From NCBI RefSeq assembly GCF_001641125.1, contig NZ_LWLP01000001.1:2776079-2840078 (forward strand): 64,000 nucleotides of DNA. Reading direction: 5' to 3'. Position 1 is the stretch's first letter, and each line of letters opens with the position of its first letter. This document shows positions 8,877-14,455 of the stretch, piece by piece. Below the pieces are notes generated by a model, which was not told the origin of the DNA, searched no databases, and saw nothing but the letters and a program-made list of their open reading frames with translations. Origin of the DNA: Arthrobacter sp. OY3WO11. Lineage in GTDB: Bacteria > Actinomycetota > Actinomycetes > Actinomycetales > Micrococcaceae. The position numbers and the translations under genes were made by a program.

Positions 8877-10466
8877 TTAGTCCTCCAGGTCCACTTCACG
8901 CACCATCTCGGCGCCGATGCCGGCCTTGATGGCGTCCAGAACCTGCTGGGGTACGGAGCTGTCGATGGTCAGCAGGGCAAGCACCTGGCCGCCTTCGTCA
9001 GAGCGTGCCACCTGCATGCCGGCGATGTTGATGTTGTTCATGCCCAGGATGTGGCCGATAGTTCCGATGACGCCGGGACGGTCGGTGTAGGCCACCACCA
9101 CGAGGTGCTCGCTGATCGGGATTTCAACTTCGAACCCGTTGATGCCAACGAGCTTCTGGATCTGCTTGGGTCCGGTCAGGGTACCGGCCACGGAGATCTG
9201 GGTGCCGTCGCTGAGGGCGCCCCGGAGGGTCAGGACGTTGCGGTACGACTCGGTTTCGGGTGTGGTGATCAGGCGGACGTTGATGCCCCGCTGCTCAGCG
9301 ATGACCGGAGCGTTGACGTAGGAAACCTGCTCGGTCACGACGTCCGCGAAGATGCCCTTCAGGGCAGCCAGTTCCAGGACCTTGACGTCAAGGGACGAGA
9401 TCTCGCCAGCCACTTCGACGTCGAACTGGGTCAGGGAGGCGTGCGTCAAGGCGGTGAAGATCCGGCCCAGCTTCTCGATCAGCGGGATGCCGGGACGGAC
9501 ATCGGGGGCGATGACGCCGCCGGCCACGTTCACGGCGTCGGGCACCAGTTCACCGGCGAGGGCGAGGCGGACCGACCTGGCGACCGAAACGCCGGCCTTT
9601 TCCTGCGCTTCGTCGGTGGAGGCGCCGAGGTGCGGGGTGACCACCACGTTGTCCAGCTTGAAGAACGGGAGGTCGGTGCTGGGCTCCTTGGAGAAGACGT
9701 CCACGCCGGCGCCGGCGATTTGGCCGTCCTGCAGGGCCGTGAAGAGTGCTTCCTCGTCCACCAGTCCGCCGCGGGCCACGTTGACGACGTAGGCGGTGCT
9801 CTTCATCTTTTTGAAGGCGTCCGCGCCCAGCATGCCCACCGTCTCCGGCGTCTTGGGCATGTGGATGGTGATGAAGTCCGCCTGGGCCAGAAGCTCGTCC
9901 AGTGTCACCAGCTGCACACCAAGCTGGGCCGCGCGGGCTGAGGTGATGTAGGGGTCGTACGCAAGGATCTTGGTGTCAAAGCCCTTCAGCCGGGCGGCCA
10001 CAAGTGCGCCGATCCGGCCCAGGCCGATGATGCCGATCTTCTTTTCGAAGAGTTCGATGCCCGTGTACTTGGAGCGCTTCCACTCGCCATCCTTCAGGGC
10101 TGCGCTTGCCTGCGGGATGTGGCGGGCCAGGCTGAGGATGTGGCCAACGGTGAGTTCAGCTGCCGAAACGATGTTCGAGGTGGGCGCGTTGACCACCATG
10201 ACGCCGGCCTGGGTAGCTGCCTTGATGTCCACGTTGTCCAGGCCTACGCCCGCGCGGGCGATGACCTTGAGGTTCTTCGCAGCCGCGATCGCCTCGGCGT
10301 CCACCTGCGTGGCCGAGCGGACCAGGATTGCGTCAACGTCGCCGATGGCGGAGAGCAGCTGGGAACGGTCGGCACCGTCGGTCTGGCGGATCTCGAAGTC
10401 CGGGCCCAGGGCCTCGACGGTAGCGGGGGAAAGTTCTTCGGCGAGCAGTACTACGGGTTTTGACAC
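8877..10466 (-). CDS. serA: D-3-phosphoglycerate dehydrogenase
   Basis: This 529-residue enzyme oxidises 3-phosphoglycerate with NAD as the first committed step of serine synthesis. It is the long (type I) form: catalytic/NAD core with GIIGLGRIGALVAARLKGF, VNVARGGLVDE and catalytic HLGAST; then an allosteric substrate-binding domain; then a C-terminal ACT domain (GMNNINIAGMQVARSDEGG) that normally binds serine for feedback inhibition. The GTG at 10466 has AGAGGA upstream; the longer frame to 10505 is not needed and the length matches the family. The ilvC terminator lies upstream. Confidence 0.95.
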   Translation of the reverse strand: MSKPVVLLAEELSPATVEALGPDFEIRQTDGADRSQLLSAIGDVDAILVRSATQVDAEAIAAAKNLKVIARAGVGLDNVDIKAATQAGVMVVNAPTSNIVSAAELTVGHILSLARHIPQASAALKDGEWKRSKYTGIELFEKKIGIIGLGRIGALVAARLKGFDTKILAYDPYITSARAAQLGVQLVTLDELLAQADFITIHMPKTPETVGMLGADAFKKMKSTAYVVNVARGGLVDEEALFTALQDGQIAGAGVDVFSKEPSTDLPFFKLDNVVVTPHLGASTDEAQEKAGVSVARSVRLALAGELVPDAVNVAGGVIAPDVRPGIPLIEKLGRIFTALTHASLTQFDVEVAGEISSLDVKVLELAALKGIFADVVTEQVSYVNAPVIAEQRGINVRLITTPETESYRNVLTLRGALSDGTQISVAGTLTGPKQIQKLVGINGFEVEIPISEHLVVVAYTDRPGVIGTIGHILGMNNINIAGMQVARSDEGGQVLALLTIDSSVPQQVLDAIKAGIGAEMVREVDLED

Positions 10467-10522
10467 GGCTGATCCTCTGCGTTGCAGTCCGGGGGATAAA
10501 AACAAGTCTAGGCCGACGGAAA

Positions 10523-10592: not shown

Positions 10593-11708
<1,116 letters not shown>

Positions 11709-12221
11709 CTAGGCGGAACGCAACGCCCTGTCACTCATGGAGCGGGATCCCCGTCCAACGGCCAGGGTGCCGGACTGCACGATTTCGCGGATGCCGAAGG
11801 GCTCCAGCACTGAGAGCAGCGCTGCAAGCTTCTCCGGAGTACCGGTTGCCTCAATCACCAACGAGTCTGTGGACACGTCGACGACGGCGGCACGGAACAG
11901 GTCTGCAGCCTGGGTCACCTGCAGACGTGTCGCGGCATCCGCACGTACCTTGACCAGGATGTGGTCTCGCTGTACGGAAGATTCAGAGGTCAGCTCAACG
12001 ATCTTGATGACGTTGATCAGTTTGTTGAGCTGCTTGGTGACCTGCTCGATCAGGTCGCCGTCGGCGTCGACGACGACGGTCATCCGGGAGATGCCCGGAA
12101 CCTCGGTGGGGCCAACAGCCAGTGAGTTGATGTTGAAGGCACGGCGGGCGAAGAGGCTCGCGACGCGGGTCAGGACGCCGGGCTTGTCTTCAACCAGGAC
12201 GGAGAGTGTGTGGCGGCTCAT
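11709..12221 (-). CDS. ilvN: Acetolactate synthase small (regulatory) subunit
   Basis: This 170-residue protein binds the catalytic IlvB subunit, activates it and carries the valine feedback site. The N-terminal ACT domain (HTLSVLVEDKPGVLTRVASLF, then FNINSLAVGPTE) is typical, followed by the smaller C-terminal domain (VVDVSTDSLVIEATGTPEKL). The ATG at 12221 has AGAGGA 6 bases upstream and lies only two bases after the ilvB stop, so the two subunits are co-expressed. Confidence 0.96.
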   Translation of the reverse strand: MSRHTLSVLVEDKPGVLTRVASLFARRAFNINSLAVGPTEVPGISRMTVVVDADGDLIEQVTKQLNKLINVIKIVELTSESSVQRDHILVKVRADAATRLQVTQAADLFRAAVVDVSTDSLVIEATGTPEKLAALLSVLEPFGIREIVQSGTLAVGRGSRSMSDRALRSA

Positions 12222-12223
12222 GG

Positions 12224-14131
12224 TCAGTCCTCTTCTTCCCATTCCGGGGTCATGTTGCGGGCAACCTGGATCTGGTCATTGCTCACGCCGGCGGGCACCA
12301 TCGGCCACACCATGGAGTTCGGGCTCACCACGAAGTCGATGACCACAGGCCGGTCGTTGATTTCGAGTGCCTTCTGGATGGTGGCGTCGATGTCCTCGTC
12401 GCGTTCACAGCGGAACGAGGCGCAGCCGTAGGCCTCCCCCAGCTTGACGAAGTCCGGGATGCGGACGGTGTCGTGGCCGGTGTTGAGGTCCGTGTTTGAG
12501 TACCGCCCCTCGTAGAAGAGGGTCTGCCACTGCCGGACCATACCCAGGGAGGAGTTGTTGATCACCGCCACCTTGATGGGGATGTTGTTGATGGCGCAGG
12601 TGGCCAGTTCCTGGTTGGTCATCTGGAAGCAGCCGTCGCCGTCGATGGCCCAGACCACACGGTCCGGCTCGCCGACCTTGGCGCCCATGGCGGCCGGAAC
12701 CGCGTAGCCCATGGTCCCGGCACCGCCTGAGTTCAGCCAGGCGTGCGGACGCTCGTACTTGATGAACTGCGCTGCCCACATCTGGTGCTGGCCCACGCCG
12801 GCAACGTAAACGCCTTCGGGGCCGGTCAGGGCGCCGATGCGCTCAATAACCCGTTGCGGTGCGCTGAGCCCGTCATCGGGTTCGGTCCAGCCCAGCGGGT
12901 AGGTCTCCTTGAGGTTGTTCAGGAAAGCCCACCAGGTGGTGAGGTCCGGTGTTCCGGATGCCTCGAACTGGGTGCGCACAGCGTCGGTAAGCTCGGGGAT
13001 GATTTCCTTGACGGACCCAACGATGGGCACGTCCGCGGTGCGGTTCTTGGAGATCTCGGCGGGGTCGATATCCGCGTGGATAACCTTCGCCATGGGCGCG
13101 AAGGTCTTGAGGACACCGGTGACGCGGTCATCAAAACGGGCACCGAGGGTGATGAGAAGGTCGGACTGCTGCAGAGCAGTCACGGCAGAGACGGTGCCGT
13201 GCATGCCGGGCATTCCCATGTGCTGCGGGTGTGAGTCCGGGAAGGCGCCCTTGGCCATCAGCGTGGTGACAACCGGGGCTCCGGTGGCCTCGGCGAGTGC
13301 CAGCAGTTCCGCCGAGGCGTGCGCCTTGATGACGCCGCCGCCCACGTACAGCACGGGCTTGCTGGCAGCTGCGATCAGCTTGGCGGCCTCGCGCACCTGC
13401 TTGCTGTGCCCGCGGGTAACCGGGCGGTAGCCGGGCAGGTCGATCTTCGGCGGCCAGGAGAAGGTCATCTGGCCAACCTGAGCGTCCTTGGCCACGTCCA
13501 CGAGGACAGGACCGGGGCGCCCGGTGGAAGCGAGGTGGAACGCCTCAGCCATGACATGCGGGATGTCGTTGGGGTCCGTCACCAGGAAGGAGTGCTTGGT
13601 GATGGGCATGGTGATGCCCACGATGTCCGCTTCCTGGAACGCATCGGTTCCGATCACGCCGCTGGACACCTGGCCGGTGATGGCCACCAGCGGAACGGAG
13701 TCCATGTGGGCGTCCATGATGGCGGTGACGAGGTTGGTGGCGCCCGGGCCCGAGGTGGCGATACACACGCCAACCCGTCCGGTCACCATGGCGTAGCCTT
13801 GCGCGGCGTGGCCGGCTCCCTGTTCGTGACGGACCAGCACGTGATTCATGCTGGAGGCCATCAAGGGGTCATAGGTGGGCAGGATTGCGCCACCGGGCAA
13901 ACCGAAAATATCGTCGACGCCGAGTTCTTCGAGCGAGCGGACAATAGCTTGCGAGCCGGTCATCACCGTTGGGGGTACAACGTTGTTCGGCCCAAGGACA
14001 GGAGAGGCAGCAGCAAGGTCGGCAGCGACGACGGCCTGGTCAGCCGCCCGGTCGGCGCGTTCCGGAGCCTTGGTGGCTCCAGCGGACTTAGTAGCCATCA
14101 GCGAGGGGCTGATCGGCGATCCTTTGCTCAT
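12224..14131 (-). CDS. ilvB: Acetolactate synthase large (catalytic) subunit
   Basis: This 635-residue ThDP- and FAD-dependent enzyme catalyses the first common step of Val/Leu/Ile synthesis. It shows the catalytic-Glu region [27 protein letters not shown], and the ThDP/Mg motif starting [15 protein letters not shown] with the conserved NN. An Ala-rich extension of about 50 residues precedes the core, common in actinobacteria. The ATG at 14131 follows AAGGAAG. Expression is probably set by the attenuator and leader peptide directly upstream. Confidence 0.96.
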
Positions 14132-14177: not shown

Positions 14178-14217
14178 AATAAAAAAACCCCTCAGCCTGG
14201 CGGCTCTTCGAGGGGTT
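14178..14217 (-). terminator. ilvBN(C) transcription attenuator
   Basis: On the minus strand AACCCCTC (14217-14210) pairs with GAGGGGTT (14193-14186), with an inner GCC/GGC helix, followed by seven Ts. This is a classic intrinsic terminator placed between a Val/Ile-rich leader peptide and ilvB, inside the 5' untranslated region. It should end transcription when branched-chain aminoacyl-tRNA is plentiful. Confidence 0.88.
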
Positions 14218-14242
14218 GCGCGTGACGGTTCGTTACCCGGGG

Positions 14243-14296
14243 CTAATGTGCCACGCGCTTGGTAAGGACGACGACGATGCCGGTAACGAAAGTCAT
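14243..14296 (-). CDS. ilvB leader peptide (attenuation peptide)
   Basis: This is a 17-residue peptide, MTFVTGIVVVLTKRVAH, ending in TAG. Seven of 17 residues are Val, Ile or Leu, with the run IVVVL at positions 7-11, as in leader peptides whose ribosome stalling controls ilv operons. It ends 26 bases before the attenuator stem. TTGACA (14327-14332) and AAAACT (14303-14308), spaced 18 bases apart on the minus strand, form a plausible promoter whose start point would fall at the ATG, so the leader message may begin with its own start codon. Confidence 0.85.
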   Translation of the reverse strand: MTFVTGIVVVLTKRVAH

Positions 14297-14302
14297 GCGT
14301 TC

Positions 14303-14332
14303 AGTTTTCCCTCTGGGCAAGATGCGTGTCAA
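14303..14332 (-). promoter_or_regulatory. Candidate promoter of the ilvB leader
   Basis: A perfect -35 TTGACA (14332-14327) is followed after 18 bases by AAAACT (14308-14303), a weak -10. The start codon of the leader peptide lies 7 bases further on, so initiation there would give a leaderless transcript. Confidence 0.55.
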
Positions 14333-14389: not shown

Positions 14390-14455
14390 CCCAACTAAGT
14401 AGCAGCAAGTGTCGTTTTGAGCGTCCAAAACGACACTTGGCGCTACCTAGTTGGG
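14390..14455. repeat. Long palindromic repeat (CCAACTA...AAAACGACACTTG family)
   Basis: Two 30-base arms (14390-14419 and 14426-14455) are complementary with three mismatches around a 6-base loop. The core is AAGTGTCGTTTTG and its complement, with outer ends CCCAACTA. It begins 22 bases after the ilvD stop and lies upstream of the ilvB promoter, so it may act as the ilvD terminator. It carries no gene and resembles a dispersed intergenic palindrome rather than an operator. Confidence 0.75.

Follow-up and report, generated by a model that had tools for sequence, protein, structure and literature searches.

The 64,000-nucleotide window, i.e., the whole stretch of DNA analysed, belongs to a Micrococcaceae-type genome, the best relatives of its IlvB protein being those of Arthrobacter and Paenarthrobacter with 92–96% identity. 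Its minus strand carries the genes ilvB for the large subunit of acetolactate synthase (12224..14131; NF005860, 1108.5 bits against a cut-off of 881), ilvN for the small subunit (11709..12221, start inferred; NF008864), ilvC for ketol-acid reductoisomerase (10593..11618; NF004017) and serA for phosphoglycerate dehydrogenase (8877..10469, start inferred; TIGR01327), the last three likewise scoring over their family cut-offs. The leader region that probably controls ilvB is preceded by ilvD, which also scores over the NCBIfam cut-off. Another element between ilvD and ilvB is a 30-nt inverted repeat (14390–14455), with arms located 6 nt apart and 90% complementary. The core palindrome of this repeat is found at five genomic sites, and a single 14-base repeat arm, with at most one mismatch, at 45 places on both strands compared to none for the reversed control. 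This repeat looks like a REP- or MITE-like element.

Between ilvD and ilvB the minus strand contains, in this order, a TTGACA box, a 17-codon ORF, a gap of 25 bases and an intrinsic terminator with seven Ts, as reported in the preliminary description, whose coordinates were confirmed in the sequence. The −35 box TTGACA (14327..14332, minus strand) is located 36 nt 5′ of the ATG, and the probable −10 hexamer AAAACT (14303..14308, minus strand) 6 nt 5′ of it; −10 versions among Micrococcaceae include AACACT, AAGACT, GAAACT, and GAGACT. The ORF (14243..14296, minus strand; ATG at 14296, stop codon at 14245–14243) encodes the leader peptide MTFVTGIVVVLTKRVAH and is probably leaderless. The predicted stall codons, assigned by ribosome-masked folding, are Ile7, Val8, Val9, and Val10 (14267..14278, minus strand). 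The terminator stem-loop AACCCCUC...GAGGGGUU (14186..14217, minus strand), recognized by sequence and fold, comprises the stem arms AACCCCTC (14217–14210) and GAGGGGTT (14193–14186), and its tract of seven Us (14181..14187, minus strand) shares the last two stem bases. Comparison with relatives and covariation define two further segments on the same strand: the putative antiterminator 5′ arm B, GCGCGUGGC (14250..14258), lying within the codons KRVA, and the complementary 3′ arm B′, GUCACGCGC (14218..14226), which ends exactly where the terminator stem starts. The RNA from 14296 to 14178 (119 nt) folds with −42.6 kcal/mol (z −2.50), and 2 of 200 shuffles were as good.

Consensus scans for sigma-70 promoters and for terminators reported neither at the ilvB leader. 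The promoter was passed over because its −10 hexamer AAAACT is poor, and the terminator because a bulge interrupts its stem, the uninterrupted part enclosing more than the loop limit. Searches with the Rfam covariance models assigned the leader to no riboswitch, T-box or other family, the one match obtained (E value 1.3) scoring 13.2 bits where the gathering score is 49.5; two tRNAs are located elsewhere in the window.

The distance between the promoter and the ORF is conserved among relatives. At 45 of 48 loci, where the leader was picked without requiring a promoter, TTGAC is located 35–37 nt before the start codon, and of the three exceptions two stem from wrongly picked ORFs and one is the stray locus L142. 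All 66 Micrococcaceae leaders read have TTGAC 35–38 nt before the start codon, part of them having been read by a pattern demanding this motif at 33–41 nt, while the count of 45/48 is independent. With a −35 box at a distance of 35–38 nt, the ATG or a neighbouring base is the expected transcript start, which makes the ilvB leader of this genome probably leaderless. Corynebacterium glutamicum transcripts are reported to begin one nucleotide away from the start codon of the leader (accessible sections of PMC11857589), and ilvL of Streptomyces is leaderless according to excerpts of PMC8079986. The pattern TTGACA-N28-34-ATG was also searched in the genome itself and rejected as too unspecific, with 50 matches versus 35 for the reversed control.

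For the comparisons, a Micrococcaceae set of 66 loci (57 distinct sequences, 14 genera) was assembled, excluding L005 (Nesterenkonia, doubtful leader) and L142 (a blastn match that is not a leader); the genus labels of L001–L004 were assigned by sequence. The outside set comprises 35 of the 58 Actinobacteria loci L006–L063, with leaders picked by eye, the other 23 having none or a doubtful one; L064–L080 are not part of this set. Related sequences within these sets are not independent. A covariance model, R1, and the alignment A1 were built from 42 of the 57 distinct Micrococcaceae sequences, 15 with long linkers being excluded, and the structure of R1 consists of the B:B′ and terminator stems.

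Search by blastn with 210 bases gave matches in 63 of 149 Micrococcaceae genomes, and R1 gave matches in 98 of the 149, representing 24 of 32 genera, a figure that includes 39 of the 42 model sequences, which come from the same 149 genomes and match by construction. Nearly all R1 matches (98/100, one in each of 98 genomes) sit 85–294 nt upstream of an ilvB match on the same strand, and the two remaining ones are weak second matches with E values of 0.0026 and 0.0040. The ilvB family itself is matched in all 149 genomes, over the cut-off in 147; 51 of the 149 have ilvB without an R1 match, and 8 of the 32 genera have none. Among class genomes, R1 matched in 115 of 197, and of 28 class loci fetched outside Micrococcaceae, 22 adjoin ilvB and 6 precede a citramalate synthase gene. 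The comparison across relatives, as proposed in the preliminary description, revealed a conserved leader and terminator, with the best match upstream of ilvB in 98 of 149 Micrococcaceae genomes. Conservation of the leader peptide, the promoter-to-ATG spacing and the terminator before ilvB supports the reading of this region as an attenuator of ilvBN(C), as had been suggested there.

The Micrococcaceae leaders (57 distinct) encode peptides of 10–23 amino acids, in the median half of them Val, Ile or Leu. In 56 of 57 Micrococcaceae and 34 of 35 outside sequences, the start of the longest run of branched-chain amino acid (BCAA) codons is located 14–23 nt, most commonly 17 or 20 nt, 5′ of the B core, so that a ribosome with a 12-nt downstream footprint waiting there would just clear B. 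The stall codons of leaders outside Micrococcaceae are strongly enriched in rare codons: of 88 Val codons 46 are GTA, of 90 Leu codons 26 are CTT and of 32 Ile codons 14 are ATT, while in ilvB from the same loci these three make up 1.3%, 3.6% and 4.7%, respectively, of the corresponding codons. In Micrococcaceae leaders GTA accounts for 49 of 254 Val and CTT for 50 of 80 Leu codons, compared with 1 of 62 and 4 of 40 in ilvB of this window. In the window's own leader the Val run is written with GTC, and the uncommon codon is CTT at Leu11.

Several lines of evidence point to the B:B′ helix as a conserved RNA structure. The best helix at this position is reached by no more than 5% of shuffles in 48 of 57 Micrococcaceae and 30 of 35 outside sequences. 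RNAalifold, run on the 42-sequence alignment with no structure supplied, returned the B:B′ helix alone, just 1 of its 8 pairs being changed in both arms; the terminator was not recovered from this alignment because MAFFT misaligned it in several genera. Within Micrococcaceae B:B′ is nearly invariant, and only pairs 4 and 6 show covariation (2 of 500 shuffles each). Anchored covariation analysis of 66 distinct Actinobacteria helices, with registers taken from the best-helix search, showed that 63, 58, and 47 of the 66 form pairs 6, 7, and 9, respectively, against shuffled means of 50.6, 32.1, and 27.2, and none of 500 shuffles reached the observed values. Pairs 1–5 hardly vary, and pairs 10–12 are paired in less than half of the helices. 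L061 and L020, whose helices have no anchor core, are absent from this analysis.

The B segment is retained even where it is not translated. The ORF stops before the B core in 7 distinct Micrococcaceae leaders, which keep GCGCGTG, and in 7 outside leaders, one of which, L020, is without the GCGCG core. This indicates that the conserved KRVA tail serves the RNA rather than the peptide. The reading-frame phase of the B core is identical in all leaders having GCGCG (55/55 in Micrococcaceae, 32/32 outside). In L120, L128, L129, L131, L132, L135, and L141, TAG cuts the leader directly before GCGCGTG, and the leader of L004 is identical; these shortened leaders have a longer linker that is apparently able to form an extra hairpin before B′.

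In the fold predicted without a ribosome, the 5′ part of the leader, segment A over codons 1–6 (14279..14295, minus strand), pairs with A′ (14223..14243, minus strand), which overlaps the 5′ end of B′, so that the candidate anti-antiterminator runs into B′; the Cs at 14240–14239 stay unpaired. The assignment of both A and A′ rests on this minimum-free-energy fold and on comparison of own with swapped partners. In 10 of 14 genera the leader 5′ part prefers its own pre-B′ stretch over those from the other genera, and in six of them strongly so (g1, g7, g31, g8, g26, and g15), and the advantage is absent in four (g32, g25, g29, and g28). The 5′ hairpin therefore seems to change its sequence while retaining its partner in most genera, and to be missing in some. 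B:B′ forms without a ribosome in 15 of 57 Micrococcaceae and in 30 of 35 outside sequences; since it is the default in the latter, the A:A′ anti-antiterminator is not general.

The effect of ribosome position was modelled by excluding from pairing the first 12 bases counted from the start of the A site, together with everything 5′ of them, in RNA cut just inside the terminator 5′ arm. For this RNA, the probability of B:B′ (helix 39–47:71–79) is 0.03 without a ribosome, 0.99 for an A site on Ile7, Val8 or Val9, 0.83 on Val10, 0.01 on Leu11 and 0 on the stop codon, the last value following from the mask by construction. A stall at some BCAA codon gives a probability of B:B′ above 0.5 in 56 of 57 Micrococcaceae and 34 of 35 outside sequences; in L137 and L061 it never exceeds 0.5 at any BCAA stall.

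The preliminary description had proposed to fold the leader for competing helices, and held that the attenuator would be refuted if no antiterminator competed with the 14186–14217 stem. Comparison and folding revealed B:B′, a ribosome-dependent and covarying helix, located flush with the terminator (gap 0) and having no bases in common with that stem. A competitor in the strict base-sharing sense was thus not found: with the 5′ part masked, equilibrium folding gave both B:B′ and the terminator with probabilities above 0.5 in 56 of 57 Micrococcaceae and 33 of 35 outside sequences. Since the two helices co-fold without a shared base, mutual exclusion would need steric or kinetic means. With helix ends permitted between 3 nt within the terminator stem and 25 nt ahead of it, the best helix ended at gap 0 in 45 of 57 Micrococcaceae and 17 of 35 outside sequences (62/92 together), versus about 7% of shuffles (78/1140 and 48/700, respectively). 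The gap lay between −3 and +2 in 52 of 57 and 35 of 35 sequences, versus 271 of 1140 and 237 of 700 shuffles.

Antiterminators sharing bases with the terminator were also sought and rejected as candidates. In own-versus-swapped comparisons, pairing of B with the terminator 3′ arm performed best (9 of 14 genera, 0.5 kcal/mol), and the other pairings of leader, linker, B and B′ with the terminator arms reached 5 to 7 of 14. Applied to the terminator stem itself, the swap test gave −14.9 for own and −14.5 for swapped partners, half of the swaps being beaten, and B:B′ beats 46%; as even the terminator stem gives no signal, this test is powerless for near-invariant helices. In an arrangement of the Corynebacterium ilvB-II type, the terminator 3′ arm would be bound by the C-rich stretch that follows the stop codon, leaving B:B′ no role beyond that of a pausing or timing hairpin. 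This pairing would share terminator bases, as classical models demand, and such linker–terminator pairing is proposed in sections of PMC10272879. In 23 representatives, the linker can form duplexes of −8.5 to −21.3 kcal/mol with the terminator 3′ side; in three genera the z value versus shuffled linkers is below −1.8. However, the mean z over 14 genera is −0.94, compared to −3.82 for B:B′, and the linker pairing has no advantage in the swap test (7/14 genera), a test of little power for conserved segments. We regard this arrangement as unlikely and infer that B:B′ acts as the antiterminator.

The model we favour is as follows. Transcription would begin with the ATG or a base next to it, and the ribosome would load on the 5′ end of the RNA. 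Without a ribosome, A would pair with A′ and keep B out of B:B′, and the terminator would form (OFF state). When Ile- or Val-tRNA is short, a ribosome waiting with one of codons 7–10 in the A site would cover A and leave B free; B could then pair with B′, and the duplex, flush with the terminator base, would prevent the terminator from closing (ON state). When amino acids are ample, the ribosome would reach the stop codon and cover B, and the terminator would form (OFF state). As to the steric step, a duplex ending at the first pair of the terminator may leave no room for that pair beside the RNA–DNA hybrid in the polymerase exit channel. The RNA before ilvB is very probably a valine/isoleucine starvation switch, in which a ribosome waiting on Val codons decides on early stop. 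The complete reading, in which the ribosome controls transcription attenuation of ilvBNC through a leaderless leader peptide and B:B′ is antiterminating, is given a probability of about 0.8.

Attenuators of the enteric ilv, trp and his operons have a leader with a Shine-Dalgarno sequence, and their antiterminator takes over one terminator arm. The likeness to them lies in the principle that ribosome position selects between mutually exclusive states deciding on termination, whereas the leader described here has no Shine-Dalgarno sequence and its putative antiterminator does not take over a terminator arm.

The closest parallels are found in Actinobacteria. Leader peptides and terminators before ilvB of Corynebacterium, Mycobacterium, and Streptomyces were predicted in 2005 (PMC1262725, in part). 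Like the leaders of Corynebacterium ilvBNC and ilvB-II, as described in portions of PMC10272879 and PMC11857589 (Morbach 2000 as cited), the leader has a BCAA-rich peptide, usually of 15–17 amino acids there, and no ribosome binding site. The order of three hairpins, anti-antiterminator, antiterminator and terminator, is also that reported for Corynebacterium ilvBNC in these portions, the first hairpin being weak or absent in some genera. In contrast to the Corynebacterium ilvB-II motif, the Arthrobacter-type sequence matches no Rfam family. B:B′ corresponds to the antiterminator of the three-hairpin model for C. glutamicum (PMC11857589, in part), in which, however, antiterminator and terminator have three common bases (GCC), while here they abut with none in common.

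According to the accessible text of PMC11857589, Val-to-Ala, ATG-to-AGG and terminator mutations support attenuation in C. glutamicum, and the antiterminator mutation G37A slightly raised AHAS (20.0 versus 13.0 units). Loss of antitermination should lower it, and the proof of the antiterminator in C. glutamicum is therefore also thin; its authors reported in the same text that evolutionary analysis was unable to separate the two competing hairpins confidently in their set. The G37A result would agree with a role of B:B′ in stabilizing the terminator by coaxial stacking and so favouring the OFF state, stalling working otherwise, and the helices that abut at gap 0 in 45 of 57 Micrococcaceae and 17 of 35 outside sequences are favourable for such stacking. 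Nevertheless, in Micrococcaceae B:B′ is computed to form mainly with the ribosome stalled upstream, which is the induced state of the C. glutamicum and M. tuberculosis operons in the excerpts available, and the corresponding C. glutamicum hairpin was assigned as antiterminator (PMC11857589, same excerpts), making a stabilizing role highly improbable relative to the antiterminating one.

The M. tuberculosis ilvB1NC leader, as presented in parts of PMC13236596, similarly has a BCAA-rich uORF and a terminator with a U tract, and a ribosome at the stop codon is said there to mask the antiterminator. Its stall codons, LVVI, are different, and in the reporter described in these parts the change of LVVI to AAAA abolishes control. 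The mycobacterial relatives examined have a longer B:B′, which in three of them (L035, L041, and L044) reaches 2–3 nt into the terminator. Streptomyces ilvL, encoding MRTRILVLGKRVG, resembles the leader by its leaderless peptide, which ends with KRVG, and by the terminator, with ilvBHC downstream (sections of PMC8079986 and PMC1262725), and differs in having fewer BCAA codons.

The element belongs to the known actinobacterial kind of ilvB attenuator, to which the flush geometry, the rare stall codons outside the family and the copies before cimA are added. Among the matches listed in a search of the open-licence literature, no description of the Micrococcaceae form of the ilvB leader was found. 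The mechanism tested in Corynebacterium and Mycobacterium is thereby extended to the Arthrobacter family, with comparative evidence on a ribosome-responsive helix.

Citramalate leads to isoleucine only. A citramalate synthase (CimA) match with E ≤ 1e-100 is present in 91 of 118 class genomes, 89 of them over the family cut-off; at this threshold cimA is not matched in the genome from which the window comes. The 30 best-scoring of the 91 loci were fetched regardless of leaders, and at 22 of these 30 (L196–L225) R1 matched with E ≤ 0.05, 36–166 nt upstream of the gene match. The ORFs contain an Ile run or a single Ile codon before B, e.g., MNAQLIISRRVG, MTYSLIIS, and VQSALIIT. An Ile codon was read in all 22 leaders, of which 17 ORFs were printed by a script and six read by eye (five missed by the script, and L197, in another frame), the choices for L218 and L200 being long. 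When codons were counted in a fixed frame, whereby leaders in which the stop changes the frame are overlooked, 14 of 22 had Ile and 7 of 22 had Ile but neither Val nor Leu; by this count Ile alone occurs in 0 of 55 Micrococcaceae and 0 of 34 outside ilvB leaders. In the four genomes with both copies, the ilvB leaders are VQTTLILVLGQRAS, VRIPRLVVG, VRRTRLVVT, and MCFAISVVLGQRAG, and the cimA leaders VTCATRLIIGLRVD, VTPAVVIIG, VTAVIIII, and VAQTLIIE. A TTGAC-like box at the leaderless distance was present in only 5 of the 17 script-picked cimA leaders, so the promoter is not common to these copies. Judging by these sequences, the same attenuator design, with isoleucine codons, stands before cimA in many Actinobacteria; in a limited search of the open-licence literature, no description of a cimA leader was found among the matches listed.

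The cimA codons bear on the question whether valine codons are involved in sensing at all. In the older mutation study of S. coelicolor, changes of the candidate codons were without effect, as reported in the available part of PMC1262725, which for this reason left the mode of regulation open. The same result would fit a real leader and terminator regulated independently of stalling on Val codons, with another signal, e.g., a protein or ppGpp, acting on the same RNA. This is very unlikely: the codon run tracks the pathway, consisting of Val/Leu in ilvB leaders and of Ile in cimA leaders; leaders outside Micrococcaceae show a strong enrichment of rare codons; the leader has no Rfam riboswitch or T-box match; and control is lost on mutation of the codon run in both C. 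glutamicum and M. tuberculosis (PMC11857589 and PMC13236596, each in part).

Returning to the ribosome-controlled attenuator, a wider interpretation is offered tentatively and at somewhat less than even odds: the element may be a modular actinobacterial attenuator, in which the antiterminator barely enters the terminator, the flush duplex sterically blocks hairpin closure in the polymerase exit channel and the codes are Val/Leu/Ile before ilvB and Ile before cimA. If steric exclusion is true, this would be a simple antiterminator design leaving the terminator sequence untouched. The cimA copies suggest that the RNA design is separable from the amino-acid code, which could be useful for building amino-acid sensors.

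Several other loci are of note. Second R1 matches away from ilvB and cimA were found at L190 in a class genome and at L194 and L195 in Micrococcaceae genomes. L193 (G330:C37:283435-283506) is an element-like R1 match, with the ORF MFALVIIM followed by GGCGCGCC...GGCGCGC and a terminator, and the gene behind it matched neither ilvB nor cimA. Further loci listed with cimA leaders are L158, L163, L164, L170, L173, L176, L183, L185, L187, and L189. The cimA leader of L189 has a quite different antiterminator sequence, GCGCACCUG with CAGGUGCGC, which still ends just before the terminator.
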